Shown one piece after another: positions 14,316 to 33,526 of a stretch of DNA of 42,037 nt; position 1 is the stretch's first letter, and each line of letters starts with the position of its first letter. A program made the translations under genes and the position numbers. A model generated the notes under the pieces. It made no database searches. It saw nothing but the letters and a program-made list of their open reading frames with translations, and was not told the origin of the DNA. The stretch is from assembly GCA_012269745.1 (NCBI GenBank), contig JAAXJR010000004.1:3630-45666 (forward strand), given 5' to 3'. The stretch comes from Flavobacteriales bacterium (GTDB lineage Bacteria; Bacteroidota; Bacteroidia; Flavobacteriales; Schleiferiaceae).

Positions 14316-14334
14316 TTAGTGTACCGAATACCTT
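14316..14334. promoter_or_regulatory. Weak third copy of the putative sugar operator
   Basis: TTAGTGTACCGAATACCTT shares the TTAGTGTA half-site and the AATAC core with the strong sites near 24390 and 25250. The arms AGTGTA and TACCTT match at four of six positions with the same 5-bp spacer. It lies 22 nt upstream of the T9SS starch-binding protein start, in the region divergent to the GH13 gene at 14416. Confidence 0.3.
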
Positions 14335-14415: not shown

Positions 14416-16188
14416 ATGAAGAATAGCGCCTTAAATCTCCTTTTCGCCTTTTTCTTGGTTGGTCCTATGGGCTCGATTAAAGGGCAAGAAGTACACCGTG
14501 TTGACCCGCCGAATTGGTGGCGCAATTTTCCCTTAGATACTGTAGAATTATTCATCACCGGCGAAGGGTTTACAAAGGCCGATATTCACAGTTTTAAGGG
14601 TGCAGAAAGACTAGAATGGGGAATCCTAAGCGACAAGGTAGCATGGGTCCAATTCCGAATTTTACCCAACTCATCCGCACAAGAAATCACCTTTACAATT
14701 GGGTGCAGAAACATCAAATACCCCCTTCTTGAACGCAGCGGTTACCAGCCTCAAGGACTAAGCGACAGGGACCTTATCTACCTCATCACCCCGGACCGAT
14801 TTCACAATGGAAATCCGAAGAACGATGATATCAAAGGCATGCGTGAGCGCGGCACCGACCTGAACGAGCCTTATACCCGACACGGCGGGGACCTCGAGGG
14901 CATTGGGCAAGGACTTGACCACATCGAAAGCCTTGGCGCCACTGCCGTTTGGATCAACCCCCTGCTGGAAAACGATATGGCCCGGGACAGCTACCACGGC
15001 TACGCCATCACGGACCACTATCAAATAGACCCGCGCTACGGCGGTAACAAAGCCCTCATTGCACTAAGCAAGCAAATGCACGAGCGCGGCCTAAAGCACG
15101 TCGCCGATGTCGTTTACAACCACTGGGGATCTTCGCATTACCTTCAAGAATTGATGCCCGATTCCTCCATGGTACACTGGAATCAAAATGGCTCTATTCC
15201 ATTTTCGAGCTTCCGCTTCACATCGCTCACAGACCCATATGCATCCAAAGACGATATCGACCGATTCGAAAAAGGGTGGTTCGCAGGCGCCATGCCCGAC
15301 CTGAACCAAGAGCACCCATTAACCGCCTCATACCTTACCTATTCCACCCTTTGGTACATAGAATCCTTCGGTGTAGACGCCCTGCGCTGCGACACCTATG
15401 CATTTTCCCATCCTACATTCCTTAGGGAGTTAAACATGCTACTCAAACGTGTGTATCCAGAGCTCTTCATCTTTGGAGAAACATGGGCCTACAGTGAAGC
15501 ATCACAGCTCTACTTCGCGCCCAACGATAACGTGAGCGCAGGTTGGACAGGCAACGATGCGGTGACAGACTTCACCCTCTGGCGCGCCATCCACTCGATG
15601 TACGAAGCCGATGAATCTGAGCAATTCGGTTGGGCCACCGGTGCAGGTGCCTTGTACTACCGCCTCGCCGCAGATTACCTCTACGAGCGCCCGGAAGACC
15701 TTATCACCTTCGTTGACAATCACGACGACGGGCGCTTCCTCGGCCAGCTAGGAAGTGAAGACAAACTTAGAAGCGCCCTAACGCTGCTCTACTTCATGCG
15801 CGGTATACCTGTATTGTACTACGGAACAGAAGTTGGTTTAAAGGGATACGAAAACCATGGCGCCATTCGCGAGGACATGCCCGGATTTTCCGAAGAGTTC
15901 CCTGATTATAGCATAATTGGCGGTCAATTGTTAGATTTGTGTCAAGAATTGGGCGCTTTTCGAAAAACAAGAAGAGCCGTTAAGTTTACCCAAAGAGTGC
16001 CAGAGAATGGTTACTACATCCTTGAGGCTGCAAACGATTATTCCAAATGGATTTTGGTCGTGAACGCCACGGATAAGATGAGGAGCCACGAATACTGGTC
16101 AGGCAAAGAGCCCATACTCAGCTCAGATAAAGGGGGCGGGTCGGTTTTCTACCCTTGGGAAGCCAAGATATTTGAATTTGAGCGATGA
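14416..16188 (+). CDS. GH13 alpha-amylase-family enzyme (neopullulanase/cyclomaltodextrinase type), periplasmic
   Basis: 590 aa. It has an N-terminal signal peptide without a lipobox, so a periplasmic location is likely. An Ig-like Cyc-maltodext_N-type domain (VDPPNWWRNF onward, about 30-110) precedes the GH13 barrel. Catalytic regions are intact: VVYNHWG (region I), ALRCD with R324 and nucleophile D326, FGETW with acid E355, and VDNHDD with H436 and D437. A short C-terminal beta domain ends the protein. It resembles SusA-type enzymes, which cut maltodextrins or cyclodextrins to maltose and glucose after import across the outer membrane. The AraC-type regulator gene overlaps its stop codon by 4 nt. 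Confidence 0.92.
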   Translation: MKNSALNLLFAFFLVGPMGSIKGQEVHRVDPPNWWRNFPLDTVELFITGEGFTKADIHSFKGAERLEWGILSDKVAWVQFRILPNSSAQEITFTIGCRNIKYPLLERSGYQPQGLSDRDLIYLITPDRFHNGNPKNDDIKGMRERGTDLNEPYTRHGGDLEGIGQGLDHIESLGATAVWINPLLENDMARDSYHGYAITDHYQIDPRYGGNKALIALSKQMHERGLKHVADVVYNHWGSSHYLQELMPDSSMVHWNQNGSIPFSSFRFTSLTDPYASKDDIDRFEKGWFAGAMPDLNQEHPLTASYLTYSTLWYIESFGVDALRCDTYAFSHPTFLRELNMLLKRVYPELFIFGETWAYSEASQLYFAPNDNVSAGWTGNDAVTDFTLWRAIHSMYEADESEQFGWATGAGALYYRLAADYLYERPEDLITFVDNHDDGRFLGQLGSEDKLRSALTLLYFMRGIPVLYYGTEVGLKGYENHGAIREDMPGFSEEFPDYSIIGGQLLDLCQELGAFRKTRRAVKFTQRVPENGYYILEAANDYSKWILVVNATDKMRSHEYWSGKEPILSSDKGGGSVFYPWEAKIFEFER

Positions 16189-17057
16189 AAGCCACGATCG
16201 AAAACATACGAATTGCCGAAAAGGACAGAAGCTACCACAGCTATGTGCTTTCGCAACGTGTGGGTCAGCGTGGACTATCCATTTTCACCGACTATTGGCA
16301 CTATCACCCGGAGATTGAAATCACGTACGTAGTCAAAGGCGAAGGACTCGCTTTTATCGGAAACAAAATCGTTGAATTCAAAGCCGGCCAAGCCTTCTTG
16401 ATTGGTCCTTACCTGCCGCACAACTTTGTCGCTTCTGACGAGGAGGAGATGATCATGGACCGCGAATGTTGGGGACTTCAGTTTACTCAGGAATGGCTCA
16501 ATTCCTTCAAAGAAAGTGCCGCCCTAGGACCGCTTTTTAAAGCGATGAGTTTTGGTGTAGATCTCGGCCTATTCACCCCTGAAGAACACGAAGACTTTGC
16601 CAATATTGTTGGAACCAATTCCCTCAAGAGCATGGGCTCCTTCTTCAATCTCATGGCTTCGATCGCCGAGCGAAAAGAGTTCAAAACCGTTTCCACAACA
16701 AGCGCATACAGCAATGTGATGAGTCAGAAGATCAGCAAGCGCATGGAACGTGTTTCGAAGTACATTCAGGACAATTACCAACGTGCTATCACACTCTCCG
16801 AAATATCGGACATCGCCAGCATGACCGAACAGAGTTTCAGCCGTTGGTTCCGACAAACTTCTGGCTTGACTTTTATCGACTACTTAATGCAACTGCGAAC
16901 AACGGTCGCTTCACACCTTCTGGTGAATACCAACAAGCCAATGTCTGAGGTTGCCGAAGAGAGCGGATTCAACTCTAGCTCTTCTTTCAACCGTTCCTTC
17001 CTAAAGGTCAAAGGTTGTTCACCCCGCGAATTCCGCAAGCTTAAAAGACCGCTCTAA
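16185..17057 (+). CDS. AraC-family transcriptional regulator
   Basis: 290 aa. The N-terminal cupin-like sensor domain contains YWHYHPEIEITYVVKGEG (about residues 34-51). The C-terminal double helix-turn-helix lies at about 190-288, including ITLSEISDIASMTEQSFSRW and MSEVAEESGFNSSSSFNRSF. The start overlaps the GH13 stop in an ATGA, so the two are translationally coupled. Its stop abuts the convergent MFS stop with no spacing. The context suggests control of starch or maltose genes; the effector is unknown. AraC-type sensors with this cupin often bind sugars. Confidence 0.93.
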   Translation: MKATIENIRIAEKDRSYHSYVLSQRVGQRGLSIFTDYWHYHPEIEITYVVKGEGLAFIGNKIVEFKAGQAFLIGPYLPHNFVASDEEEMIMDRECWGLQFTQEWLNSFKESAALGPLFKAMSFGVDLGLFTPEEHEDFANIVGTNSLKSMGSFFNLMASIAERKEFKTVSTTSAYSNVMSQKISKRMERVSKYIQDNYQRAITLSEISDIASMTEQSFSRWFRQTSGLTFIDYLMQLRTTVASHLLVNTNKPMSEVAEESGFNSSSSFNRSFLKVKGCSPREFRKLKRPL

Positions 17058-18443
17058 TTACGCCTCCGGGGTGTAGGTTACGGCCTTCTTATTTGTAATC
17101 AAAAAGTTTGACAACCCTGCAATAACCAACGAAGTTCCTGCTAGCAACATAGCGTTGATTGGATCTTCACCAAATACCCCTTTGTAAATAGTCGTCAGTG
17201 AAGTTGCAGCCACAATCTGTGGGATGACGATAAACATGTTGAAAATACCCATGTACACTCCCATTCTGTTCGGATCCAACGTGGAGCTCAACATCGCATA
17301 CGGCATAGACAGGATAGACCCCCAACTGAATCCAATACAAACGAAGCTTAAGATCAACATCGACGGCTCGGTGATGAAGTACATGCTAATGAATCCGTAC
17401 GCCCCAGCGAACAAGCTGAACATGTGAACGAACTTTCTATTGATTCGTCTCTTAGCCGTCCAAAGGGTCAACAACAGGGCGAATACCATAGAGCTCAAGC
17501 CATAATTACCCATGTACGAACCCACTTTATTTGAAGCGTCATTAAATGCTCTATCCGCTATTTGGTAAGCATCTATTTGCTCAGCAGTACTTACGGCGAA
17601 GTCGATAGCCTCAGGCTTCGCAGCATTAAAAACATGATCCGTCAAGGCAGGGTTGGCCATGGACCACATACAGAAGAAGGCAAACCAAGAGAAGAATTGG
17701 ACCACACCTAAACGCTTCATTGTCTTCGGCATATCTGCGATGTTCTTGAACACCTCAGAAATAGTATTGGCTAAACCCGATTTTTCCTTCTGCTCCGCAC
17801 GGAAAGCTTCCATGTCCTCAGGGGGATATTCGTCGGTAGTAAAGACTGTGTAAAGGATAGATAAGATGAATACTGCAGCACCTATTCCGAATGCCACCTG
17901 CACCGACATCGGCACCACACCAGGCTCAGCTTCGTTGCTTACACCTAAAGAACTCACCATCAGCGGCAAGTTTGAAGCCACCCAGGTACTCACACCAATA
18001 ATCAGCGTCTGCACCACAAAACCAAAACTGCGCTGGCTGTCTGGCAATTTATCCGCCACCAAGGCACGGAACGGCTCCATACTGATGTTCATGGTAGCAT
18101 CAAGAATCCATAGACCCCCTGCTGCCATCCAAAGTGCCGAACTGTGTGGCACCACCAATAATGTTAGAGAAGCAAGAACTGCACCTATCAGAAAATAAGG
18201 GCGGCGGCGGCCAAACCTCGGGTGCCACGTATTATCGCTCATCTGACCAATAATAGGCTGCACGATAAGTCCCGTGAGCGGCGCGGCAATCCACAACAAT
18301 GGAAGGCTGTGCTCGTCAGCACCGAGCGTTTCAAAAATACGGCTCATGAATCCGCCTTGAAGGGCATATCCAAACTGGATTCCCAAGAAGCCGAAGCTCA
18401 TGTTCCAAATTTGCCAAAAACTGAGTTTAGGTTTGTTCTGCAT
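17058..18443 (-). CDS. MFS disaccharide transporter (SLC45-type, probable maltose importer)
   Basis: 461 aa from the ATG at 18443. Twelve hydrophobic segments; the loop between segments 2 and 3 contains GQMSDNTWHPRFGRRRPYF, typical of GPH/SLC45-like MFS sugar transporters. Relatives in Bacteroidota maltose clusters import maltose for intracellular maltose phosphorylase. The frame extends 43 codons upstream, but that part runs through an intrinsic terminator and has no membrane character, so it was not used. Expression may come from read-through of that terminator or from a weak promoter-like AATATTTG near 18510. Substrate assignment rests on context. Confidence 0.9.
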   Translation of the reverse strand: MQNKPKLSFWQIWNMSFGFLGIQFGYALQGGFMSRIFETLGADEHSLPLLWIAAPLTGLIVQPIIGQMSDNTWHPRFGRRRPYFLIGAVLASLTLLVVPHSSALWMAAGGLWILDATMNISMEPFRALVADKLPDSQRSFGFVVQTLIIGVSTWVASNLPLMVSSLGVSNEAEPGVVPMSVQVAFGIGAAVFILSILYTVFTTDEYPPEDMEAFRAEQKEKSGLANTISEVFKNIADMPKTMKRLGVVQFFSWFAFFCMWSMANPALTDHVFNAAKPEAIDFAVSTAEQIDAYQIADRAFNDASNKVGSYMGNYGLSSMVFALLLTLWTAKRRINRKFVHMFSLFAGAYGFISMYFITEPSMLILSFVCIGFSWGSILSMPYAMLSSTLDPNRMGVYMGIFNMFIVIPQIVAATSLTTIYKGVFGEDPINAMLLAGTSLVIAGLSNFLITNKKAVTYTPEA

Positions 18444-18464
18444 GTTTCTCTGAGTGTTAGTTGA

Positions 18465-18490
18465 GAAAAAACCCGGCACTGGGCCGGGTT
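18465..18490 (-). terminator. Intrinsic terminator between the secreted protein gene and the MFS gene
   Basis: Minus strand: AACCCGGC, loop, GCCGGGTT, then TTTT (stem 18470-18490). It lies 27 nt before the MFS start codon inside a co-oriented gene run, so it should reduce MFS expression relative to the genes upstream. Confidence 0.85.
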
Positions 18491-18513
18491 CTAAGCTGGC
18501 GTGTAGCCAAATA

Positions 18514-19368
18514 TTATTGACAGAAGATCGGAATAACGACCGCTTCTGTAACACGGTCTGCACCGCTCGCAAAGTTTTTACGCATCGCGATGAATTCTAA
18601 GTAATCCACCTCCTTATTAGGATTCAGGTTGAAGTGCTGTGTAGGAACAATCAACATCTCGAAGTTGCCATCGCCCACATCCGTCATCTGTAGGTCTGGA
18701 TTAGAACCAACGTTGAAAGTATTCTCAATCTGCTGGCTAGTACCGTCCGTATAAACCACTTTAGCGTAGGCGTAACAATCGTCAGAAGCTAGGTTCTGCA
18801 TCGATGCTTTTTCCTCTCTCCAGTTCTCGTAACGCAACGTGATTACGTCGTCAATCTTCACCTTCGTCGGGAAGTGGTAGAATGGATTGCGCTCCGTCGC
18901 AGGGGGGTCAATTGCAATACTCTGATCATCCGTCTTTACATCCGGATCACCGTAACCACCGCCGTCTTTTGCCTTCACCAAGAAGTGAATGTCTTCGTTG
19001 TAAACTGTAGTTGCATCCACCTCGTAAAACAAGGTTGGAACAATCTTCCAAGAGAACGTACCGTCAGAATTCTTGGTCATCTTCATAGCCTCATTAGAAT
19101 TCTTCCAAGGCGCGGAACCTGTGCCGTTTACATACGGGTGACCGTCCGGGTGTGTGGCTGGCTTCCACGTCCAAATGTACATGTCTTCACCTGCATCTAC
19201 AGCCTGCTTCAAAAGGTCTTGGTGACCTACGGCGAGGTCAAGAGCAGATGGGTCGAAGATAATCTCCAAAGAATCTGCTGGGTCGATGTTCTCATCAGGG
19301 ATTGTTGAGATTTGAGCCGAAGCATTTAGGCCCAAAGTCAATGCGAGTAGTGTGCTAATCTTTTTCAT
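18514..19368 (-). CDS. Secreted protein of unknown function in the sus-like operon, possible glycan-binding
   Basis: 284 aa. The signal peptide is MKKISTLLALTLGLNASA with cleavage before Gln; there is no lipobox and no T9SS sorting domain. The body looks like beta-sandwich material: Trp-rich YIWTWKPATHPDGHPYVNG, then an alternating KMTKNSDGTFSWKIVPTLFY segment and FLVKAKDGGGYGDPDVK. This layout is reminiscent of carbohydrate-binding modules in SusE/SusF-like proteins, but I cannot name a family with certainty. It is the fourth gene after susC, 6 nt downstream of the DUF5004-like lipoprotein, and is followed by a terminator. A role in maltodextrin binding is inference. Confidence 0.75.
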   Translation of the reverse strand: MKKISTLLALTLGLNASAQISTIPDENIDPADSLEIIFDPSALDLAVGHQDLLKQAVDAGEDMYIWTWKPATHPDGHPYVNGTGSAPWKNSNEAMKMTKNSDGTFSWKIVPTLFYEVDATTVYNEDIHFLVKAKDGGGYGDPDVKTDDQSIAIDPPATERNPFYHFPTKVKIDDVITLRYENWREEKASMQNLASDDCYAYAKVVYTDGTSQQIENTFNVGSNPDLQMTDVGDGNFEMLIVPTQHFNLNPNKEVDYLEFIAMRKNFASGADRVTEAVVIPIFCQ

Positions 19369-19862: not shown

Positions 19863-21272
19863 TTATTCGCAGCCTCCTTCTTCGTTATATATAAATCCTT
19901 GGGCGGTTCCTTCAAAGTTAGGGAATTGGAGCACCATTCCTGGACAGTCCCAATCCACGCCGCGAATCTTTTGAATCTCACCCAATACACCTTGACGCTT
20001 CAACTGGAACAAACGATCGCCTTCACAAGCCATCTCCAATCTTCTTTCGTTCATTACATCAGAGATGCTAAGTGAACTCAAGGTCGCTACGTTTGCACGT
20101 GTTCTTAGGTCATTGATATAACCCAATCCTGAACCGTCAGCATCGCTGTTCAAACGAACATTACACTCTGCGTAGATCAAATACATCTCCGTCAAGTGGA
20201 TTAGTGGCACATCGATAAAGCTCGCGTCGAATTTGCTGATCATGTACAACTCATCTGCGGTACCCGCGTTGCGGATGTCGTACCACAACTGACCGCGAAG
20301 GTCATTGGTGTCCGAAGTAGCCGCTACGTATAGATCGGCGCTTGCCTTCAGTGCTGGGTTCGCATTTGGATCATCAGAACGGTAATTACCCACGTAACCT
20401 GATCCACGCTCATCTACCAAGGTGTCGCCACCAACTACTTCATTGGTGCTCACCAAAGTGAAGATGAATTCAGCCGGCAAACTTGTGTTTGGATGGTCGT
20501 TGAATCGCTTCGTTAAATCCTGCTCCAAGCTGTAAGAGCCCGAACCAATTACCTCAGCAGCTTTCGCCTTTGCATTGGCGAAATCGCCCATTTCCAAATA
20601 CACTTTAGCCAAGAGGCCTTTCGCTGCCATTTGATCCGCAAAGATGCCGTTGTCCGAAGGTAGGTCGGCTTCAGCGTCCAATAGATCTGAAACGATGGCC
20701 GCGTAAACATCGGCAACCGTAGCGCGCATTTGCGGCGTCTGATCGGCGCTCAACTTTAATGGAATACCAAGGTGACTGTTGTCTGAGGTGTAACCGTAAG
20801 GCAAAGCCCAGATACGAACTACGTGGTAATGACATAGGGCACGAATGAATTTTGCTTCAGCAGAAATTCTTTCGATACTCTCTGCGGTTGCACCTTCTAG
20901 ATCTGCAACCTCTTCCAACAAAGTGTTGGCGCGATAGATTGCGATGTATGCATCGCGGTATTCACCGCCAAATGAACCGTTAAAGAACGAAGATGTCCAA
21001 CGGTAAATCTGTGCGTATTCGCCGTTCAAGCCTAGTGGGTCAGCAAGGTTATCTGACATTACTTCCGGGATGTTTTGGAAACGGCCGTTGAAGGCGTTTG
21101 CCGCGACATCATAAACGCTCACCAATAGTTGCTCTGCATCCTCAATGGTTACAATGGCTGAATCTGCTGGGATTTGAGACGTAGTATCCGCTTTAAAATC
21201 TAGGATACGCTCACACGAGGAGTTTCCTACTACAATCGCTACAAGTGCTAGAAGTGCTACTATCTTTTTCAT
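19863..21272 (-). CDS. susD: SusD/RagB-family surface glycan-binding lipoprotein
   Basis: 469 aa. Lipoprotein signal MKKIVALLALVAIVVGNSSC (Cys20). The SusD fold is shown by ISAEAKFIRALCHYHVVRIWALPYG (TPR region) and by the C-terminal ERRLEMACEGDRLFQLKRQG motif typical of SusD proteins. It caps the SusC channel at the outer surface and binds the oligosaccharide to be imported, here presumably maltodextrin from context. It lies 12 nt downstream of susC. The symbol is by family, not proven orthology to Bacteroides SusD. Confidence 0.95.
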   Translation of the reverse strand: MKKIVALLALVAIVVGNSSCERILDFKADTTSQIPADSAIVTIEDAEQLLVSVYDVAANAFNGRFQNIPEVMSDNLADPLGLNGEYAQIYRWTSSFFNGSFGGEYRDAYIAIYRANTLLEEVADLEGATAESIERISAEAKFIRALCHYHVVRIWALPYGYTSDNSHLGIPLKLSADQTPQMRATVADVYAAIVSDLLDAEADLPSDNGIFADQMAAKGLLAKVYLEMGDFANAKAKAAEVIGSGSYSLEQDLTKRFNDHPNTSLPAEFIFTLVSTNEVVGGDTLVDERGSGYVGNYRSDDPNANPALKASADLYVAATSDTNDLRGQLWYDIRNAGTADELYMISKFDASFIDVPLIHLTEMYLIYAECNVRLNSDADGSGLGYINDLRTRANVATLSSLSISDVMNERRLEMACEGDRLFQLKRQGVLGEIQKIRGVDWDCPGMVLQFPNFEGTAQGFIYNEEGGCE

Positions 21273-21284
21273 GATTGCTAAGGA

Positions 21285-24200
21285 TTAAAAGTTAATGTTT
21301 ACACCAATGTTGTACGTCTTCTCCTGCGGTGGAGTGAGGTACGTTATGTTCGGTGACATGTTACGGTCAGTAGCGTTCTCGAAATCACGAGCAATCTCTG
21401 GATCCAAACCGATGTAATTAGTCAAAGTGAGCAAGTTTGTGCCAGTCACATTTACCGTCAAACCTTTCACGTTTTTGATCAATTTATCTTGTGGCACTCG
21501 GTAGCTCAACTTCACGTTACGCAAGCGAGCGTAGGTCCCATCGTGCAACCAGAGATTGGTGTTGATCCACTCTGTATTTGAACCGTAGGTACGGTAATCG
21601 CGGCTTAGACGCGGGTAAGTTGCGATATCACCCGGCTGTTGCCAGCGGTCGAACAAATCTGTACGCATGTTCCAATCGGTCACCACACCCATCTGACGCT
21701 TCGAAGAGCTATCGTAGATATCACCACCGATCGTGAACACCCACATGAAGCCAAACTCCCAGTTCTTGTAGTTAAATGTATTGGTCAAACCACCAATAGC
21801 ATCTGGCATTACATTACCTACTGCTACACGATTCTGAAGGTCCCAAGTATACGTTTCGTTGCCTTCCTTGTCGAGGTAAACCGGTAGACCATTTGCTGGG
21901 TCTACGTGAGAGAATTGAACGAGGTAGTTGGTACCAATTGGCATTCCTACAACTACACGAGTATCGTTAGTACCACCACTTACTGCATCTGGCGAGTACT
22001 CACCGATAGAAGTAATCTGGTTGTAGTTACGTGCAATGTTGAAGTCCGTGGTCCACGTGAAGTTATCTGTCACGATGTTTCTCGACTTAATCGCAAATTC
22101 AACACCTGTGTTGTACACGCTACCAACGTTGTCCCACCAAGAACCGAATCCTGTAGAACCTTGTAGCGTTACGTTTAATAGCATGTCGTTTGTCTGTTTG
22201 CGGTACCAAGCCAATTCACCTGAAATACGGTCGTTGAAGAATCCGTACTCAAGACCTACGTCATAAGTTGTAGATGTTTCCCAACGCAAGTTTGCGTTTT
22301 CGCGAATTACCGGGTAGCGGTACGTCTGACCTGCGTAACCGTTGTTGGCTACATTGTAGTAACCAAACCACTGGTACGAAGGAATAGCAGAGTTACCGTT
22401 CTTACCTACGGACGTTTTCAACTTCAAGAAGTTAATTGCCGGCATGTTTGCCATAAAGTCCTCGTCCGAGATGACCCAAGCAACCGAAGCTGCTGGGAAG
22501 TTACCGTACTTGTTATTAGGACCAAACTTCGAAGAACCGTCACGACGAATCAATGCTTCAGCGTAGTACTTTCCTTTGAAGTTGTAGTTCAAACGGGTGA
22601 AGGCAGAAGCAAACGCATATTCCTCGATGTAGCTCAATGGATCGTTCACCCACTGGCCCGTTTCGCGGATCTGACCTACAGCCTCGCTGTCGTAGTAGCC
22701 GTCAAAGCGCTTAATTCTGTTGTATTGGTACTCCGAACCAACCAACCAGTTGATGTGGTGGTCTTCGCCCAAATCCTTGATGTAGTTCGCTGTGGCGTTT
22801 CCTGACGTGTTGTACACGCTATATGGGTACATATTTGCGCGACCCAAGAAGTTGCCGTCCGCATCCTTATAAGTAGGATCGTAACCTGGCTTCTCCCAAA
22901 TGTGGTCTTCGAAGTGCATGTAATCGAACGCCCCTTGACCGCGGAAGGTCCAGTTATCGTTCAATTTGTAGTTCATGGTAATGTTGTTGATCGAACGATC
23001 TTCGATAGCCGTCCAATCTTTCATGTCGCGTTGTGCAACAGGGTTTAGGCTAATACCGCCTTTCAACCAGTAATCACCAGCCGAAGCAACAAGGTTGCCG
23101 TCGTCGTCATATTCGTCTTCTGCGTAGTAAATAGGATAGATTGGAAGTGCACGAGACATTGCCTCACCAAAACCACCCGACCAGGCGGCATCGATACGGT
23201 TGTTTACCCCGCGAGAAAGCGACGTGCTCAATCCTAATTTGAATCGTTTCGTAATGTCAAAATCTGCATTGATACGTCCAGATAGACGCTCGTAAGAGTT
23301 GCCCGCCAAATAACTGTGGTTATCATTGTAAGAAAGGCCCGCGTAGAAGTTTCCTCCCTTGAACCCGCGAGAGGCAGAGAAGTCGTAGCCGTGCTTAATA
23401 CCTTGACGGATGGTCTCTTGTACCCAATCGGTTCCTTCAAAAGCTTGCGCCTCAGCCCAGCTCATACGGTTACCTGGAAGCTCTGGAACACCAACGTTTC
23501 CATCGTTTACCCAGGCCTCTTCGTACATTTGAAGGTACTCGTCCTTGTTCATCATGTTAGGCAGGGCAGTTGGGTTTGAGAAACCAACGCGTGATGAGAA
23601 ATTATAAGTCAATTTCTTGCTCTTACCTCTTTTAGTAGTAATCAATACAACCCCGTTAGAACCACGAGAACCATAGATACCTGTTGCAGCAGCATCCTTC
23701 AAGATCTCTACAGATTCGATATCGTTAGGGTTGATCGTTGCAAGTGGGTTGGTGTTGAAACCACCGCGGTTACCGTTAAGGAAGTAATCTTGAGTAATTG
23801 GAATACCGTCCACTACATAAAGTGGGTCACCACCTGCTGAAATAGAGGCCACACCACGAACACGTACCATTGAGCCGGAGCCCGCGATACCTGAACCAGT
23901 AATTACCTGAACCCCGGCAGCCTTTCCTTGAATGGCATTTTCAAACGAAGGTGTTGGAATGTCGGTAAGCTCTTTGGTCTTCAACGAAACTACAGATCCA
24001 GTAAGATCGCGCTTACGAGCCACACCATATCCTACAACGACAACTTCGTCGAGTTGATTGCTCGCAGGGTTCATAGTTACATTGATGATTTGCTTGCCTT
24101 TGATATCCACTTCCTTCACTACCGGTTCGTAACCGATAAATGAATAAGTGATGGCATACTTCCCTGGCTTTAAAGAAAGGGAATATTGACCGTTGAAATT

Positions 24201-24353
24201 CGTAGAGGTTGCTCCACCCTTATCAACTGAAATGGCTACCGATGGAAGTGGTTCATTGAACTCATCTACTACCGTACCTGAAACCGTCTGTGCTTGGATT
24301 GCACCGCCAATTAGCAGGGAAAGAGCCACGAGAAAACGTGAGAATCGCTTCAT
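21285..24353 (-). CDS. susC: SusC/RagA-family TonB-dependent outer-membrane transporter
   Basis: 1022 aa. Signal peptide (cleavage after IQA), then a carboxypeptidase-D-like regulatory domain (VSGTVVDEFNEPLPSVAISV, about residues 24-100). A plug domain with VVVVGYGVARKRDLTGSV follows, then the SusC signature DPLYVVDGIP and a long beta-barrel ending in a terminal aromatic (INF). It imports oligosaccharides across the outer membrane with SusD. First gene of a minus-strand operon: susC, susD, DUF5004-like lipoprotein, secreted protein, then the MFS gene past a terminator. A -7 box and a putative operator lie just upstream. Confidence 0.96.
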   Translation of the reverse strand: MKRFSRFLVALSLLIGGAIQAQTVSGTVVDEFNEPLPSVAISVDKGGATSTNFNGQYSLSLKPGKYAITYSFIGYEPVVKEVDIKGKQIINVTMNPASNQLDEVVVVGYGVARKRDLTGSVVSLKTKELTDIPTPSFENAIQGKAAGVQVITGSGIAGSGSMVRVRGVASISAGGDPLYVVDGIPITQDYFLNGNRGGFNTNPLATINPNDIESVEILKDAAATGIYGSRGSNGVVLITTKRGKSKKLTYNFSSRVGFSNPTALPNMMNKDEYLQMYEEAWVNDGNVGVPELPGNRMSWAEAQAFEGTDWVQETIRQGIKHGYDFSASRGFKGGNFYAGLSYNDNHSYLAGNSYERLSGRINADFDITKRFKLGLSTSLSRGVNNRIDAAWSGGFGEAMSRALPIYPIYYAEDEYDDDGNLVASAGDYWLKGGISLNPVAQRDMKDWTAIEDRSINNITMNYKLNDNWTFRGQGAFDYMHFEDHIWEKPGYDPTYKDADGNFLGRANMYPYSVYNTSGNATANYIKDLGEDHHINWLVGSEYQYNRIKRFDGYYDSEAVGQIRETGQWVNDPLSYIEEYAFASAFTRLNYNFKGKYYAEALIRRDGSSKFGPNNKYGNFPAASVAWVISDEDFMANMPAINFLKLKTSVGKNGNSAIPSYQWFGYYNVANNGYAGQTYRYPVIRENANLRWETSTTYDVGLEYGFFNDRISGELAWYRKQTNDMLLNVTLQGSTGFGSWWDNVGSVYNTGVEFAIKSRNIVTDNFTWTTDFNIARNYNQITSIGEYSPDAVSGGTNDTRVVVGMPIGTNYLVQFSHVDPANGLPVYLDKEGNETYTWDLQNRVAVGNVMPDAIGGLTNTFNYKNWEFGFMWVFTIGGDIYDSSSKRQMGVVTDWNMRTDLFDRWQQPGDIATYPRLSRDYRTYGSNTEWINTNLWLHDGTYARLRNVKLSYRVPQDKLIKNVKGLTVNVTGTNLLTLTNYIGLDPEIARDFENATDRNMSPNITYLTPPQEKTYNIGVNINF

Positions 24354-24379: not shown

Positions 24380-24387
24380 CAAATGTA
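24380..24387 (-). promoter_or_regulatory. Putative susC promoter -7 box
   Basis: Minus-strand TACATTTG matches TAnnTTTG exactly, 26 nt upstream of the susC ATG. The putative operator at 24384-24399 overlaps its upstream edge. Confidence 0.55.
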
Positions 24388-24399
24388 AAGAATACACTT
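24384..24399. promoter_or_regulatory. Putative sugar operator at the susC promoter
   Basis: TGTAAAGAATACACTT, an imperfect inverted repeat (AATGTA, 5 bp, TACACT). It is identical at 15 of 16 positions to the site at the pfkA promoter (25241-25256, opposite strand). It overlaps the upstream end of the susC -7 box and extends into the -7/-33 spacer. An extra AAGTGT half-site lies at 24365-24370. Confidence 0.55.
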
Positions 24400-24411
24400 C
24401 TTCTTAGGAAG

Positions 24412-24443
24412 GCGGGAAAAAGGCGGTATTAACTGAATCCGCC
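24412..24443 (-). terminator. Probable terminator of the Nudix-type regulator gene
   Basis: Minus strand: GGCGGATT, loop, AATACCGCC, followed by five T. The stem has one bulged base. It separates the regulator transcript from the susC promoter. Confidence 0.6.
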
Positions 24444-24474
24444 CACTTTTTAACCGAACAAAGGGCTTTTGGGG

Positions 24475-25179
24475 TTAAGTCAAGCTATCTTCTGATTTAA
24501 TACGATACAAACGGGCCGGTTTGTGAAGCACCCCTTTCTGCTTTTCTTCAGTGGCCTCAATCATCTTTTCGCGGACGATTTTTTTACGGAAATTTCGCTT
24601 GTCCAATTCCTCTTGAGTTATGGCCTCGTGCAGCTGTTGGAGTTGATTTAACGTGAATTTTTGAGGCAACAATTCGTAGGCCGTTTTATTGAGCTCGAAA
24701 TGACGCTGAAGCTTCATCAAAGCGACCTCAACAATGGCATTGTGATCAAAAGCTAGCTCAGGAATCTCACGGATATCTTGCCATAACGCCTCACCGGCGA
24801 AACTCGACGGATTCGGAATGAAGTCTGCCATCTTCACCAAAGCGTAATAGGCGACGGTGATTACCCTTTCTTTCGGATTGGCGCGGTAGAGCTCCAACCA
24901 CTTTCTATCCTTTTCAGCATTCACACGCAAGGGATCGCCGAAGGTGTGGAACTGTTGCAGGTGAACATCTTTCAAACTAGCCAGCTCCCATAAAACGCGG
25001 TCTGCTGCCTCATCGAGCCCTTCACCCCTGTGGATCAAATCCCCTGGAAGACGTTTTCTCAAAATGCCTTGTCCAATGTCCTTTTCCTCAATCAAGAGCA
25101 CGTTTAGGCGCTCTCCATCAAAGCCGAAAATGACACAGTCAACACTGAAATTAGGATTGATATCCTTCAATTCACTCAT
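24475..25179 (-). CDS. Nudix-fold transcriptional regulator (NrtR/AraR-like)
   Basis: 234 aa. The N-terminal half is a Nudix fold (FSVDCVIFGFDGERLNVLLIEE, LPGDLIHRGEGLDEAADRVLWEL). The Nudix box is degenerate: the metal-binding REUxEE core reads RVLWEL, so hydrolysis is unlikely. The C-terminal part (about 150-234: FELNKTAYELLPQKFTLNQLQQLHEAI, then NFRKKIVREKMIE) matches the winged-helix domain of NrtR-type regulators, which in Bacteroidota include pentose-sensing repressors. It sits between susC and the divergent pfkA operon, flanked by two copies of the same putative operator. Control of both transcripts is an inference from this arrangement. Confidence 0.88.
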   Translation of the reverse strand: MSELKDINPNFSVDCVIFGFDGERLNVLLIEEKDIGQGILRKRLPGDLIHRGEGLDEAADRVLWELASLKDVHLQQFHTFGDPLRVNAEKDRKWLELYRANPKERVITVAYYALVKMADFIPNPSSFAGEALWQDIREIPELAFDHNAIVEVALMKLQRHFELNKTAYELLPQKFTLNQLQQLHEAITQEELDKRNFRKKIVREKMIEATEEKQKGVLHKPARLYRIKSEDSLT

Positions 25180-25240
25180 GGTCAGTTTTTGGTAACGTGT
25201 TAAATTTGGGGTGCTTCAAGATAAGCAGTAAAAATTTAAT

Positions 25241-25258
25241 AAGTGTATTATTTACACT
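25241..25258. promoter_or_regulatory. Putative sugar operator at the pfkA promoter
   Basis: A perfect inverted repeat, AGTGTA (25242-25247), TTATT, TACACT (25253-25258). Read on the minus strand it contains TGTAAATAATACACTT (25256-25241), one base different from the susC site. It lies directly upstream of the pfkA -7 box. Confidence 0.6.
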
Positions 25259-25265
25259 AAGTTAC

Positions 25266-25273
25266 TATCTTTG
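25266..25273 (+). promoter_or_regulatory. pfkA promoter -7 box, near-leaderless transcript
   Basis: TATCTTTG is an exact TAnnTTTG match. The pfkA ATG begins only 5 nt after it, so the start of transcription should fall at or next to the ATG and the mRNA would be leaderless or nearly so. Confidence 0.6.
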
Positions 25274-25278
25274 CGCCC

Positions 25279-27263
<1,985 letters not shown>

Positions 27264-27317: not shown

Positions 27318-28190
27318 ATGATACTAATTGCAGAAAGTGGCTCTACGAAATGTGACTGGGTAGTTCTAAACTCAGACGGTTCTGAGCACAAGCGCTTCTC
27401 TACAATGGGGTTCAATCCTTATTTTCATTCAGCTTCTTTTATTCATGAGGAGTTGAGTGAGAACGAGGTGGTTAAAACCATATACGCTCAAGTAGAGTTC
27501 GTTTATTTCTACGGTGCTGGAGCTTCTTCTGAAAGCTTGAAGGATATCGTTAAGGACGGGTTACAACAAGTACTTCCCAATGCAAACGTTAGCGTCGATC
27601 ACGACCTTGTAGCCAGTGCCTACTCCACGTACACGGGCGAGCCTGCCATTACTTGTATTATCGGTACGGGGTCTAACAGCTGTTATTTTGACGGCGAGAC
27701 CGTGAGCGAAGAGGTGCCTGCTTTGGCATACATCCTCGGTGATGAAGGCTCAGCGAGCTTTATTGGTAAGCGTTTGGTGTCCGATTTCTTGTACAAAAAG
27801 CTCCCTGCGGAGATGGCTGAAGATTTCTTCAACACGTACCAATTGGACAAAGACGAAATCATCACCAGCGTGTACAACAAACCTAATGCAAACGTATACC
27901 TCGCGTCTTTTAGCCGCTTCGCTGGAAAGCACATGGAAAACCCATATGTGAAGCAAATTGTACGTGAAGGTTTCGCAAAATTCGCAGATATCCACATCGC
28001 GTGTTTCGACAACTGCAAAGAGGTGCCTGTGCACTTTGTAGGTAGCGTTGGCGCTATCTTCCACGAGATTCTTGAAGAGGTGTTGGAAGAGCGCGGAATG
28101 CGCCTTGGACAGATTATGCGCAAGCCTGTGGACGGCCTCATTAAGTATCACCTTGAGTACTTGAAAGTACTCGATGCCTATAAAGTTTAA
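27318..28190 (+). CDS. BadF/BadG/BcrA-type sugar kinase (N-acetylglucosamine kinase-like; possible glucokinase)
   Basis: 290 aa. ASKHA-fold ATPase: phosphate-1 motif ESGSTKCDW (6-14), GTGSNSCYF, and LGDEGSASFIGKRL. Bacteroidota members are usually annotated as N-acetylglucosamine kinase. Here the gene sits 9 nt before pgmB and then the maltose phosphorylase gene. That pathway releases free glucose, and no other glucokinase is present in the window, so glucose is a reasonable substrate; this is inference from context. The start lies 11 nt after the gapA terminator. Confidence 0.85.
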   Translation: MILIAESGSTKCDWVVLNSDGSEHKRFSTMGFNPYFHSASFIHEELSENEVVKTIYAQVEFVYFYGAGASSESLKDIVKDGLQQVLPNANVSVDHDLVASAYSTYTGEPAITCIIGTGSNSCYFDGETVSEEVPALAYILGDEGSASFIGKRLVSDFLYKKLPAEMAEDFFNTYQLDKDEIITSVYNKPNANVYLASFSRFAGKHMENPYVKQIVREGFAKFADIHIACFDNCKEVPVHFVGSVGAIFHEILEEVLEERGMRLGQIMRKPVDGLIKYHLEYLKVLDAYKV

Positions 28191-28199
28191 ACCGATCAC

Positions 28200-28844
28200 A
28201 TGATTAAAGGATTCCTTTTTGATCTAGACGGCGTTATTGTAGATACCGCCGTTTTTCATTTTCAAGCATGGCGTCGACTCGCTCAAAAACTAGGCGGCGA
28301 CTTTACCGAAGAACAAAACGAGCAACTCAAGGGGGTGAGCCGAGTAGATTCGCTCAAGAAAATCATAGAATGGACCGGCGCAACTGTGAGCGACGAAGAG
28401 TTCCAGACATTGATGGTAGAGAAAAACGAGTGGTACCTTGAGTTGGTGCAGGGTTTAGGCCCGCAGGATGCACTGCCAGGAGCACTTAATTTCCTGCAAA
28501 CCGCCTACGACCAAGGCATCAAAATCGCATTGGGTAGTGCTTCGAAGAATGCGCCCATGATTTTGGAAAAACTGGGTATCACTCCATTGTTCACTGCGAT
28601 AATTGATGGGAATAATGTGGTAAACGGCAAACCTCATCCAGAGGTATTTTTGAAAGGAGCAGAAGCTCTAGGACTAGAACCGTCAGAATGTGTCGTGTTT
28701 GAAGACTCCATCGCTGGGGTCCAAGCGGCAAAGGCAGGTGGCATGTCAAGCGTAGGTATCGGCGATGCGGAGACCTTGCAGGCAGATGTCCACTTCAGCG
28801 CATTGGGCGAGACGACTCCTGAAGCTTTGGTAGCTCACTTTTAA
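28200..28844 (+). CDS. pgmB: Beta-phosphoglucomutase
   Basis: 214 aa, HAD superfamily. It converts beta-glucose-1-phosphate from maltose phosphorylase to glucose-6-phosphate. Seen: nucleophile D8 and acid/base D10 in FDLDGVIVD; cap-domain LKGVSRVDSLKKI typical of beta-PGM; GSASKNAP (motif II); KPHPEVFLKGA; and VFEDSIAGVQAA (motif IV). It lies directly before the GH65 gene (18-nt gap), the standard pairing for phosphorolytic maltose use. Confidence 0.95.
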   Translation: MIKGFLFDLDGVIVDTAVFHFQAWRRLAQKLGGDFTEEQNEQLKGVSRVDSLKKIIEWTGATVSDEEFQTLMVEKNEWYLELVQGLGPQDALPGALNFLQTAYDQGIKIALGSASKNAPMILEKLGITPLFTAIIDGNNVVNGKPHPEVFLKGAEALGLEPSECVVFEDSIAGVQAAKAGGMSSVGIGDAETLQADVHFSALGETTPEALVAHF

Positions 28845-28862: not shown

Positions 28863-31190
28863 ATGTTCAATAAATATACTGAGGTAGACCCTTGGAAGAT
28901 CATCGAGCGCGGTTGGGATTCTGAAAACCACCCAAAGAGCGAGAGTTTATTTTCTATTGGTAACGGCCGTATGGGCCAACGTGCCAATTTCGAAGAGACT
29001 TACACCGGTAATAGCCTTCAAGGCTCCTACATCGCTGGGGTCTATTACCCCGATAAGACAAGAGTTGGTTGGTGGAAAAACGGGTACCCGGAGTACTTCG
29101 CCAAGGTATTGAACTCTTGTAATTGGATCGGCATTCAGGTGAAGGTCGACGGAGAGGAATTGGACCTTAATACCGCTACTGAAGTAGCGTCATTCTACCG
29201 CGAGCTCGACATGCAAAGTGGCTTGCTCAAGCGCTCTTTCGAAGCAACCCTTCCTTCAGGAAAAATCGTGGCTGTTGAAGCAGAGCGTTTGGTGAGCATC
29301 GTTCAAGACGAGATTGGAACCATTTCCTACAGCGTTACGCCGAAGAATTTCTCAGGCAAGATTGAATTGTGCTCGTACCTAGATTTCGATGTAGAAAACG
29401 AGGACAGCAACTATGACGAGAAGTTCTGGGAGCCTGTTACTCAAGGTCAGGAAGCAGGCGCAAGCTATGTGCACGCCAAGACCAAAAAAACCGGTTTCGA
29501 GGTAACTGTGGCCATGCGCAACAGTCTAAACTTGGACGGAGCGCCGCAAGAATGGGGCATGAGTTCAGATGCGAAGCACATGTTCGTCAGTGAATGCGCC
29601 TGCTATGAGGTGGCTCAGGGTCAAACCTTGAAACTTGAAAAATTTGCAGCGGTATTATCCAGCATGAACCACGACGTGGCAAGCTTGGATGCAAAGGCAG
29701 CAGCGCGCGCTACGGCGGCAGCAGCGCAAGGCTATGAAGCTCTGCGTGGTGAGCACGTAGCTGCTTGGCATAGCAAATGGGAGACCTCTGATATTGAAAT
29801 TGACGGCGACGCGGAAGCACAGCAGGGCATCCGTTTCAACATCTTCCACATGAACCAAACCTTCACAGGTGTGGACGACAGATTGAACATCGGTCCTAAA
29901 GGGTTTACCGGCGAGAAATACGGCGGTTCTACCTACTGGGATACCGAAGCCTACTGTTTGCCTTTCTACCTCGCAACGGCGCAGCCGGAGGTGGCGAAGA
30001 ACTTGTGTTTGTACCGTTATAAGCAGCTGGACAAGGCCATCGAAAATGCAGGCAAGCTCGGGTTTACCGACGGCGCAGCATTGTACCCGATGGTAACGAT
30101 GAACGGTGAGGAATGTCACAACGAGTGGGAGATCACTTTCGAGGAAATCCACCGTAATGCAGCCATCGCTTATGGCGTGTTCGATTACATACGTCACACC
30201 CAAGATTGGGGCTATTTGGCCGAAGGGGGATTTGAGGTCCTTCTAGGTATTAGCCGATTCTGGTCGCAGCGTGTGAATTGGTCACAGGAAAAGGAAGCCT
30301 ACGTGATGCTCGGTGTAACTGGGCCGAACGAGTACGAAAACAACATCAACAACAACTGGTACACCAACCGCATGGCAGCCTGGACGTTGGAGTGGACGTT
30401 GGAAGCCCACCATTGGCTTAAAGAAAATGCTGCGGACGCGCTGAGCGCCATCTCCAGCAAGACTGCGCTGAACGCAGATACAGAATTCGCCAAGTGGAGT
30501 GATATCATCGCCAAGATGTACTACCCAAAGAGCGAGAAATTAGGCGTGGTATTACAGCAAGACGGCTTCTTAGACAAGGAGCAGCTCACTGCCGACGACC
30601 TCAGCCTGGACGAGCGTCCAATCAACCAGCACTGGAGCTGGGACCGCATCTTGCGTTCGATCTTCATCAAGCAGGCGGACGTATTGCAAGGCTACTACTT
30701 CTTGAACCACCTCTACGAGGAAGAAGAAGTAAAGCGCAACTTCGACTTCTATGAGCCGAAGACCGTTCACGAGAGCTCGTTGAGCCCTTGTGTGCATGCC
30801 ATCCTAGCAGCACAGATTGATTACCCAGAGAAAGCCTACGAAATGTATTTACGCACCTCTCGTCTGGACATCGACGATTACAACCGCGAAGTTCACGAAG
30901 GGTTGCACATCACCTCGATGGCTGGAACATGGATGTCTGTAGTGCAGGGATTCGGGGGCATGAAGATTCGCGACGAAGAGTTGCATTTCACGCCAAAGCT
31001 TCCCGAACAGTGGAAGGGCCTCACCTTCTCCATCCTTTGGAGAGGCGCGACGCTCAAAGCAAACCTCACAGCCGAAGGCATGACCATCGAAAACGTGAGT
31101 GGCACTCCAGCCAAATTTGCGATCGACGGCCAGTGGTTTGAAGTAGCCGCAGGCGAAAAAGCATCCACTGCAGCCGAAGCACATGCTTAA
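28863..31190 (+). CDS. GH65 maltose phosphorylase
   Basis: 775 aa, the usual GH65 length. It splits maltose with phosphate into glucose and beta-glucose-1-phosphate in the cytoplasm; no signal peptide is seen. The N-terminal beta-sandwich is followed by the (alpha/alpha)6 barrel. The general acid is E490 in VTGPNEYENNINNNWYTN, a motif characteristic of maltose phosphorylase rather than trehalose or kojibiose phosphorylases. HESSLSPCVHA (about 640) fits the phosphate site. With pgmB beside it and GH13 enzymes downstream, maltose is the best substrate call. Confidence 0.94.
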   Translation: MFNKYTEVDPWKIIERGWDSENHPKSESLFSIGNGRMGQRANFEETYTGNSLQGSYIAGVYYPDKTRVGWWKNGYPEYFAKVLNSCNWIGIQVKVDGEELDLNTATEVASFYRELDMQSGLLKRSFEATLPSGKIVAVEAERLVSIVQDEIGTISYSVTPKNFSGKIELCSYLDFDVENEDSNYDEKFWEPVTQGQEAGASYVHAKTKKTGFEVTVAMRNSLNLDGAPQEWGMSSDAKHMFVSECACYEVAQGQTLKLEKFAAVLSSMNHDVASLDAKAAARATAAAAQGYEALRGEHVAAWHSKWETSDIEIDGDAEAQQGIRFNIFHMNQTFTGVDDRLNIGPKGFTGEKYGGSTYWDTEAYCLPFYLATAQPEVAKNLCLYRYKQLDKAIENAGKLGFTDGAALYPMVTMNGEECHNEWEITFEEIHRNAAIAYGVFDYIRHTQDWGYLAEGGFEVLLGISRFWSQRVNWSQEKEAYVMLGVTGPNEYENNINNNWYTNRMAAWTLEWTLEAHHWLKENAADALSAISSKTALNADTEFAKWSDIIAKMYYPKSEKLGVVLQQDGFLDKEQLTADDLSLDERPINQHWSWDRILRSIFIKQADVLQGYYFLNHLYEEEEVKRNFDFYEPKTVHESSLSPCVHAILAAQIDYPEKAYEMYLRTSRLDIDDYNREVHEGLHITSMAGTWMSVVQGFGGMKIRDEELHFTPKLPEQWKGLTFSILWRGATLKANLTAEGMTIENVSGTPAKFAIDGQWFEVAAGEKASTAAEAHA

Positions 31191-31246: not shown

Positions 31247-33526
31247 ATGAAGAAATTTCTATTATTTGTAACCGCTTTGGCCGTCTTCACGGCCTGTGAA
31301 CAGGAGGAGGAAAAAGCAGTGATTAGCTACAACGCTGCCGCTTTGGCAACGCCGTACGTGCACAACGGAGATACCAGCATTTTCCACATCAAAGACTACA
31401 CGCTCGAGGAGGGCGCCGTGTTGAGTGGTTTGCCTTCCGGAGTATATAGCTACATGACCGGTGAAGGGGTTTACAAGATTTTTGGACGTCCTGAAAACAC
31501 CTTGGGCACCATGCGTATTTCGAGCCGTGAAAGCACCTTTGAAGTGCCTTTCGTAAAGGGTCAAAAACGCGGGGTCCAATTCCGCGTCGCCGCCTTCGAA
31601 GGCCAAGACGTGAAGGTCAAAGGCGAATTTAATGCGTGGAACACTGAGGCGAGCTTCCTCCAATGGGACGGCGACGCGTGGGTATGGAACCTCGTGCTCG
31701 CACCGGGCGATTATGCCTACAAGCTGGTCGTCGATGGACAAGAGGTGATGGACCCGACCAATACGCTCAGCCAAGCCAATGGATTTGGTGGGTACAACAA
31801 TATCCTTTCTGTGGAATCTGAGAGCGAGGCGGAGCCTCGCGGCGTGCGCTTTGTTGGCGGCGGACAGCTAAAACTAATGTTTACCCCGATGCCTGAAGAC
31901 CAAGAGGTCCTTATCATGCTCAACAATACGCCTTTGAATAGTACGCGCTCGCCGTTGGCTACCGTTGTGGAATTGCCAGAAGAGGTAGAGGCGATGGAGC
32001 TCGCTTGGGTTAGATTGTACAGTGCGCGCGGCGGAAAATTGGCCCCAGATGCACTTATCCCATTGAAGTATGGGAAGGTGGTTGAAGACCCGAAAGAATT
32101 GGACCGTAGTAACTGGCATACTTCCATTATGTACTTCGCTATGATCGACCGATTCCTTAACGGCGACGCTTCGAACGATCAGCCTGTAGACGACCCAGCC
32201 GTACACCCTCGTGCCAATTACCAAGGTGGTGATATCGCCGGGTTGCGTGCTAAAGTGAACGACGGCTACTTCGATTCCTTAGGGGTAAACTGTCTTTGGA
32301 TTAGCCCACTTACTCAAAACCCAGAGGATGCCTGGGGGCTCTGGAACCAGGGCGGACCGGTGAGCACCTTCTCTGGCTACCACGGCTACTGGCCAGTGAG
32401 CAATATCAAGCCTGACCACAGATTCGCTACAGATGCCGATGTGCACGCCTTCTTAAATGATGCTCATGCTAAGGGCAATAATGTGCTGCTCGATTATGTG
32501 GCGAACCACGTGCATGAATTGCACCCGGTGTATCAGAAAAACCCGCATTGGGCAACCAACAAATACACTGACGATGGCCGACTCAACACCCAGCTTTGGG
32601 ACGAAGAAAGGCTGACCACTTGGTTCGATACGTTCATGCCTACGCTGGAATTGCGCAATGATACCGTGGCCGACCTTATGTCCGACAGTGCCCTGGTTTG
32701 GATCACGCAGTATCCGTTCGACGGGTTCCGTCACGATGCGACCAAGCACATCCCTATGAACTTTACGCGTCTGTTGACCGAAAAGATCCGCAAGGTGAGC
32801 GACAAGCACGTGTACCAGATTGGAGAGACCTACGGCTCCGACGAGCTCATCGCCAGCTACGTAGGAAGCGGTAAGGTGGATGCCCAGTTCAATTTCAACC
32901 TCTACGATGCCGCCTTTGAAGCCTTCACTCAAGAAGGTGTGTCGTTCGACCGATTGAAAAAATCCCTCGAGAGCAGCCTCACCTACTACGGCTACCACCA
33001 TTTGATGGGGAACATTTCAGGGAATCAGGACAAGCCTCGCTTCGCCTCCATGGCCAGTGGCCATTTGAGCCCTTCAGAGGACAGCAAGCTTGCCGGTTGG
33101 ACCAGAGAAATTCCTGAGGCAAACGAGCGTGGATTCCGTAAGATGGCGTGTATGCACGCCTTCAACATTGCCGTTCCAGGTATCCCTATCATCTACTACG
33201 GCGACGAGATCGCCATGCACGGTGGCAATGATCCAGATAACCGCAAAATGATGCGCTTTGAGGACCACAACGACCGCGAGAAGGCCTTGTGGGAGCAGAC
33301 CGCTGAGCTCATCCACCTGAGAAGAAATTCCATGGCACTGAACTATGGCGGCACGGACATCTACCAGCCTGAGGCAAATGTATTGGTCATAGAACGCCAA
33401 TTCGCCAATGAATATGTCCGCTTCTTCTTCAACAATAACCCGAAAGAAGTGACCCTAGAAAAATGGGGCATCACTGTACCTGCAGACGACTTTACTTACC
33501 ATATACAAATCTTAGAACGTGAATAA
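31247..33526 (+). CDS. GH13 alpha-amylase-family lipoprotein with CBM48-like domain
   Basis: 759 aa. Lipoprotein signal ending VFTAC (Cys17) followed by acidic residues, which suggests outer-membrane surface export. An N-terminal beta domain (about 20-105) and a CBM48-like domain (VKVKGEFNAWNTEASFLQWDG, about 105-190) precede the GH13 barrel (about 280-700). Region II GFRHD (R495, nucleophile D497) and region III GETYG (acid E527) are present. Region IV reads G592-N-Q-D595, with Gln in place of the usual His. It overlaps the next GH13 gene by 8 nt. Likely role: degrading starch outside the cell to supply SusC/SusD. Confidence 0.9.
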   Translation: MKKFLLFVTALAVFTACEQEEEKAVISYNAAALATPYVHNGDTSIFHIKDYTLEEGAVLSGLPSGVYSYMTGEGVYKIFGRPENTLGTMRISSRESTFEVPFVKGQKRGVQFRVAAFEGQDVKVKGEFNAWNTEASFLQWDGDAWVWNLVLAPGDYAYKLVVDGQEVMDPTNTLSQANGFGGYNNILSVESESEAEPRGVRFVGGGQLKLMFTPMPEDQEVLIMLNNTPLNSTRSPLATVVELPEEVEAMELAWVRLYSARGGKLAPDALIPLKYGKVVEDPKELDRSNWHTSIMYFAMIDRFLNGDASNDQPVDDPAVHPRANYQGGDIAGLRAKVNDGYFDSLGVNCLWISPLTQNPEDAWGLWNQGGPVSTFSGYHGYWPVSNIKPDHRFATDADVHAFLNDAHAKGNNVLLDYVANHVHELHPVYQKNPHWATNKYTDDGRLNTQLWDEERLTTWFDTFMPTLELRNDTVADLMSDSALVWITQYPFDGFRHDATKHIPMNFTRLLTEKIRKVSDKHVYQIGETYGSDELIASYVGSGKVDAQFNFNLYDAAFEAFTQEGVSFDRLKKSLESSLTYYGYHHLMGNISGNQDKPRFASMASGHLSPSEDSKLAGWTREIPEANERGFRKMACMHAFNIAVPGIPIIYYGDEIAMHGGNDPDNRKMMRFEDHNDREKALWEQTAELIHLRRNSMALNYGGTDIYQPEANVLVIERQFANEYVRFFFNNNPKEVTLEKWGITVPADDFTYHIQILERE

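Follow-up and report, generated by a model that had tools for sequence, protein, structure and literature searches.

A Nudix-type regulator of the NrtR/AraR family appears to link starch import to glycolysis in a marine Schleiferiaceae bacterium

INTRODUCTION

How polysaccharide uptake is tied to central metabolism in marine Bacteroidetes is poorly known. SusR, HTCS and ECF sigma factors are local regulators of uptake loci and have been discussed as controlling uptake and polysaccharide genes (PMC3878776). The DNA analyzed here, called the window throughout, is a stretch of 42,037 nucleotides from the genome of a marine Flavobacteriales bacterium of the Schleiferiaceae. It carries the gene of a Nudix-type regulator between a susC-type import gene and a glycolytic operon led by pfkA, with similar operator-like motifs on either side. 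An earlier note on this DNA had proposed that one factor controls both starch import and the operon. Does a single regulator really join the two? As judged from sequence comparisons, one Nudix-type regulator appears to control glycolysis as well as glycan import, and it may reach gluconeogenesis too.

RESULTS

A starch and glycolysis locus with two near-identical sites

The operon's first gene, pfkA (25279-26262, plus strand), encodes an ATP-dependent 6-phosphofructokinase. It is followed on the same strand by gapA, a type I GAPDH (26277-27263), a BadF/BcrA-type sugar kinase inferred to be glucokinase-like (27318-28190), a HAD hydrolase (28200-28844), a GH65 enzyme of the maltose phosphorylase type (28863-31190) and two GH13 enzymes (31247-33526 and 33519-34868). 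We read the HAD protein as β-phosphoglucomutase-like because the GH65 phosphorylase adjoins it. Glycolysis and starch genes are already joined within this operon. On the other side of the regulator gene lie susC, for a TonB-dependent transporter (21285-24353, minus strand), susD (19863-21272, minus), genes for small DUF5004 and DUF4961 proteins, an MFS transporter gene (17058-18572, minus), the gene of an AraC-type regulator with a cupin sensor (16185-17057), a GH13 gene and the gene for a T9SS-secreted starch-binding protein of the CBM48 type (12666-14294, minus).

The motif occurs as TGTAAAGAATACACTT at 24384-24399 on the plus strand and as TGTAAATAATACACTT at 25256-25241 on the minus strand; the two differ at a single base, and the regulator gene (24475-25179, minus strand) lies between them. 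The palindromic unit that the sites have in common is AGTGTA-N5-TACACT, and we scored its 12 arm bases. The predicted operator O1 (25242-25258, plus strand) lies where pfkA and the regulator gene diverge; it is the perfect palindrome AGTGTATTATTTACACT and matches at 12/12. The predicted operator at susC, O2 (24382-24398, minus strand), is AGTGTATTCTTTACATT, which reads AATGTAAAGAATACACT on the plus strand, and matches at 11/12. A weaker predicted operator, O3 (AGTGTACCGAATACCTT, 14318-14334, plus strand, 10/12), stands between the genes for the starch-binding protein and the GH13 enzyme. A scan of the whole window found no further site at 10/12 or better.

Re-reading the window sequence thus bore out most of what the earlier note had described: the coordinates of the strong sites and their one-base difference, the 6-5-6 inverted repeat that is perfect at pfkA, the place of the regulator gene and the weaker copy upstream of the starch-binding protein. 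The claim that each strong site abuts or overlaps a TAnnTTTG box stood only in part. O2 does overlap the susC box, TACATTTG (24380-24387, minus strand), but the pfkA box, TATCTTTG (25266-25273, plus strand), which is conserved in close relatives, begins 7 bp past O1. TAnnTTTG is the -7 element of the Bacteroidetes -7/-33 promoter consensus.

The sites are conserved, and their targets recur

Perhaps two promoters resemble each other here simply by chance? Loose matches are certainly common. A window scan with a 16-mer at up to 3 mismatches found 2 matches where 0.82 were expected, which is not significant, and in a pattern search of the source genome at up to 2 mismatches the motif gave 75 matches and the reversed control pattern 85, so that there was no excess. 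Exact sites alone were enriched in that genome (4, versus 0 for the reversed control). Chance resemblance is also contradicted by the co-occurrence with the regulator described below and by conservation. Scanning genome contigs for the regulator yielded 24 close relatives (identity 78-98%; the gene is partial in one) under the titles Schleiferiaceae, Cryomorphaceae and Flavobacteriales; beyond these came one ortholog at 54% (L044) and distant Actinobacteria. Every one of the 24 close relatives had a 12/12 site at pfkA, its arms invariant around a spacer that read AATAA, AACAA, AATGT, AAAGT or AATGG. The 54% ortholog had no site at pfkA.

At susC, nine close relatives kept an 11/12 site whose right arm is overlapped by the -7 box. 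Among the more distant relatives, the majority have a site that reads AGTGTACWTTTGAC, displaced by a few bases; its spacer contains the -7 box and its right arm has decayed. This pattern, at the susC promoters of L029-L031 and L035-L043, has the appearance of operator turnover. Sites upstream of susC in family f14 and in further genera matched at 11 or 12 of the 12 bases, and in f14 (G053 and G064) the regulator is flanked by two exact sites, just as in the window. O3 has counterparts at the homologous place, 10/12 in G033 and 11/12 in G037 and G019. Because they are conserved across relatives, we conclude that the sites are real; the two strong ones form a real operator pair, their role as operators being predicted from sequence. 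We give chance resemblance almost no credence.

The earlier note had named scattering of the motif at unrelated promoters as an outcome that would count against it. Family genomes contained about 72 exact sites, of which three overlap a called ORF; two of those ORFs are over-extended or spurious, leaving one site (L171) clearly inside a gene. The targets were recurrent: pfkA (15 genomes), susC (13), the regulator itself, CBM48/CBM20 proteins (6 genomes, 12/12), a 480-aa GAPDH (6), homologs of the window's MFS transporter (4 other genomes) and α-glucan phosphorylase (3), with PEP carboxykinase and GH31 as single cases. In several genomes with the susC site, a GH13 gene sits between the regulator and the site. 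The recurrent targets are sugar genes and not NAD genes, and no arabinose genes were identified among them. There is a high likelihood that the pair of sites belongs to a real regulon, a reading that is well supported. The predicted wider membership is susC, amylases, starch-binding proteins, glucan phosphorylase, a maltose-type transporter, pckA and a GapB-like GAPDH. In one respect the regulon proposed earlier was drawn too narrowly: the GapB-like GAPDH and pckA are also predicted members, and their sites are positioned differently.

Several further sites were noted in passing. In the source genome, those at ridA/secA and in the purK region have no clear tie to sugars, and those at an MFS plus Gfo/Idh pair and at two further susC genes are left unexplained by the regulon. 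A second SusC/SusD pair (G000:C6:13618, L184; L172, L177) is closely preceded by the motif in three species of the genus, and two sister species have it in exact form. An exact site lies 150-204 bp upstream of uvrC, a gene with no evident sugar link, in three species of genus g8 (L147, L151, L152). Sites also occur in pairs with a spacing of about 235 bp, which might allow looping: one pair is close to a susC promoter (G000:C65:32476 and 32710), and the other lies between purK and the gene of an outer-membrane protein (C8:48465 and 48701).

The regulator shares the DNA-reading helix of AraR and differs in its sensor half

The product of 24475-25179 has 234 aa and consists of a degenerate Nudix domain followed by an NrtR_WHD/AraR_C winged helix, as seen with Pfam, PDB and an AlphaFold model. 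The winged-helix domain PF21906, a feature of the NrtR family, scored 86.5 bits against a cut-off of 27, and the Nudix domain PF00293 was also above its cut-off. The Nudix box itself is broken, with RVLWEL in place of REUXEE. By sequence, the best PDB match was BtAraR of Bacteroides thetaiotaomicron (5bs6, E=9.4e-33, almost full length), and the top fold matches of the AlphaFold model (pLDDT 88) were AraR and then NrtR. Against the NCBIfam NtrR equivalog the protein scored 83.7 bits, far under the cut-off of 400. In the regulator tree the outgroup branches are very long and deep support is weak. We read the protein as a new functional branch within the known NrtR/AraR family rather than as a regulator of a new kind.

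The residues with which AraR reads the major groove (K179, R180, N181 and K184) are all kept: the regulator and every aligned ortholog have the recognition helix of BtAraR, DKRNFRK, without any change. In the wing, K204/R205 of AraR are H/K. Operators tested with BtAraR (AGTGTATTTGATACACC, AGTGTTACTTTTACACC and AGTGTAAAAAAGACACT) share the pattern AGTGT-N7-ACACY with the window motif, and the contacts in the BtAraR structure define GTGT (PMC4666351). Our collected sites are A/T biased at ±9 and ±10, positions that lay outside the selection, which points to a 21-bp palindrome, the same site length as for AraR.

The ligand pocket looks different. H131, F129 and V92 of AraR are retained, and R34, F36, G48, F49 and G89 are replaced by K, I, D, L and K. 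The arabinose contacts R34, R86 and H131 are accordingly not all present: H131 is kept, R34 is K, and R86 falls beside an insert, where the match is alignment-dependent. This conserved insert, RV...KD..WL...R..P, comprises about 17-20 residues (about 85-101) next to the pocket; in alignments it was absent from AraR, NrtR and a second NrtR-type regulator of the source genome, the C75 paralog. It is a possible effector determinant. Since the helix is identical and the sensor half has diverged from that of AraR, the two regulators share a DNA address and probably respond to different signals. The target genes and the extra basic residues make a phosphorylated sugar our guess at the effector.

The sites follow the regulator

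If this regulator owns the sites, the two should be found together. Of 41 genomes in the family, 24 had an exact site, in each case together with an ortholog, and none of the 10 ortholog-free genomes had one (Fisher 1.7e-5). By manual tally of an order-wide sample, the exact motif was present in 24/47 genomes with a close ortholog versus 11/101 others; ortholog-bearing genomes without an exact site often had one at 11/12 or 10/12 at pfkA. We then considered the pfkA promoter alone, taking 320 bp upstream of pfkA, anchored on its GGDAPGMN motif, in 49 chosen genomes. A site of at least 10/12 was present in 20/21 ortholog-bearing genomes, which span several families, versus 1/28 ortholog-free genomes (Fisher 1.5e-11, not corrected for relatedness). 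The regulator-bearing G032 had no pfkA site in this test, and a second, unlinked pfkA in three regulator-bearing genomes had no site in any of them. On the pfkA tree the regulator state changes about five times; in an independent-pairs test on 3 supported pairs the site followed the regulator in nearly all pairings (p=0.25, too few pairs).

One genome of the survey, G140 (96% complete; L206, which is G140:C114, and L207), has three exact sites and no regulator ortholog among the matches listed; two of these sites are at gapA-like and BadF-kinase genes.

Could a paralog of the NrtR type, C75 for instance, own the sites instead, with the window protein binding elsewhere? The C75 gene (G000:C75:97404-98000; L187:3950-4627) adjoins a sodium:solute symporter gene, and its product shares the DKRNFRK helix, so the two regulons may overlap; paralogs in G009 and G034 (33-36% identity) even have an exact site directly upstream. 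However, C75 itself has no motif upstream, and the pfkA site is missing from members of the order that have multiple paralogs and lack a close ortholog. G019 and G028 have the ortholog as their single detectable NrtR-type regulator, yet carry sites at pfkA and susC. Hence, the C75 paralog is not needed, and we rejected it as sole owner of the sites; the paralog reading as a whole is improbable.

The AraC-type regulator (16185-17057) is another candidate, since its gene lies inside the starch cluster and is syntenic in close relatives, and it might control the starch genes through the motif. The motif, however, is a 21-bp palindrome of the AraR type, and it stays with the Nudix regulator at loci whose surroundings showed no AraC gene. 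We regard AraC control as very improbable and set it aside. The proposal of one factor for starch import and the pfkA operon finds support in conservation, in the target list and in the helix identity with AraR; wherever an outcome that the earlier note had named as refuting could be computed, the result favored the proposal.

Site positions suggest repression at pfkA, gapA and susC

O1 itself covers the -33 region of pfkA, about 20 bp upstream of the -7 box. Across genomes, a site at pfkA starts 16 to 31 bp ahead of the point where the -7 box starts; this distance is 11 or 31-34 bp for susC and 31-34 bp for gapA, whether linked to pfkA or standing alone. It varies by genus, and the -33/-7 region is covered at nearly all pfkA, susC and pfkA-linked gapA sites. 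Covering of the core promoter at such differing phases suggests steric repression, and so that the regulator would be a repressor at pfkA, gapA and susC.

Taken together, we consider it highly probable that the window regulator binds both strong sites, couples starch import to glycolysis and is released by a sugar signal. In this model, the product of 24475-25179 would be a sugar-responsive NrtR/AraR (Nudix) regulator that binds AGTGT-N7-ACACT as a dimer. Free of effector, it would occupy O1 and O2 and block the core promoters of susCD and of the pfkA-gapA-kinase-pgmB-GH65-GH13 operon. It is probably self-controlled, because O1 also lies within its own divergent promoter region. Starch breakdown would raise an intracellular sugar or sugar phosphate, which would enter the Nudix pocket; the winged helices would then rotate and release the DNA, as L-arabinose does with BtAraR, and import and glycolysis would be turned on together.

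Sites upstream of gapB-like GAPDH and pckA promoters

In the source genome, the gene for a GapB-like GAPDH (477 aa) has an 11/12 site 111 bp upstream (G000:C21:17166-17182; L231:4167-4183). The site was found in a blind genome scan and the gene was placed afterwards; its position is conserved in several genera. The source genome's pckA has no site. At the GapB-like, 480-aa GAPDH of other genomes (gap2), the site starts 93-96, 82 or 71 bp from the -7 box, and at pckA 70-73 bp; single cases at these genes are 119, 80 and 138 bp. Since these sites lie upstream of the promoters, plain repression is insufficient, and activation by the DNA-bound form is suggested.

Cra (FruR) of Escherichia coli, a LacI-family protein, acts on both glycolytic and gluconeogenic promoters. 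Perhaps the window regulator is a dual switch of this kind, a repressor of glycolysis and starch genes where its site covers the promoter and an activator of the gapB-like GAPDH and pckA where the site lies upstream? Sites of at least 10/12 were present at gap2 in 10/19 and at pckA in 9/24 regulator-bearing panel genomes, and in 0/6 and 0/4 genomes without the regulator; shuffled controls gave 0.14 and 0.18 where 10 and 9 were observed. The distances cluster with a spacing of about one helix turn, and the source genome has the gap2 site. Against this, the best-fitting period is 11-11.75 bp and not 10.5, the 119 and 138 bp distances break the pattern, the source genome's pckA is without a site, and co-occurrence at these genes is weak when taken alone (pooled Fisher p=0.009). 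The analysis suggests that the regulator may activate putatively gluconeogenic genes, following the logic of Cra. We put the dual reading a little short of an even chance; it extends the repressor model rather than contradicting it.

DISCUSSION

A literature search, with most subscription journals outside its reach, found no earlier report of a Nudix/NrtR regulator for starch or glycolysis in Flavobacteria. If our reading is true, the NrtR/AraR family reaches beyond pentoses into hexose and starch metabolism, a ready motif is at hand for predicting regulons in uncultured marine lineages, and the regulator offers a clean case of a changed sensor with the DNA-reading helix kept. In its fullest form, the proposal is that Flavobacteriales other than the best-studied families have evolved a Cra-like central carbon switch from a Nudix scaffold, one that would repress polysaccharide import and glycolysis, activate gluconeogenesis and sense a glycolytic sugar phosphate through its clade-specific insert. 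We give this composite somewhat less than an even chance.

How does the regulator compare with known systems? Its logic would be similar to that of Cra if the dual reading holds, but the two are not homologous, the window regulator not being of the LacI family. In B. thetaiotaomicron, starch import of the susC type is controlled by SusR, but SusR is a membrane-bound activator with a direct-repeat motif (PMC3878776) and belongs to an unrelated family, whereas the window regulator is a Nudix and winged-helix protein with a palindromic site. Shewanella NrtR (3gz5/3gz6) shares fold, family and an inactive Nudix box; it differs in controlling genes of NAD metabolism, in its effector, ADP-ribose, and in its helix, QGKSFRR as against DKRNFRK. 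BtXylR (BT0791; PMC3878776), a predicted NrtR-family xylose regulator, is similar in exerting sugar-catabolism control in Bacteroidetes, but it serves a pentose pathway, and the literature examined describes no glycolysis or starch regulon for it.

The closest counterpart is BtAraR (BT0354; PDB 5bs6, 5ddg and 5deq; PMC4666351). It has the same Nudix and winged-helix architecture, an identical recognition helix, a 21-bp site of the AGTGT-N7-ACACY pattern and SusCD systems among its targets. However, BtAraR targets arabinose genes and the predicted targets of the window regulator are those of glycolysis and starch; the pocket residues differ, and AraR does not have the insert.
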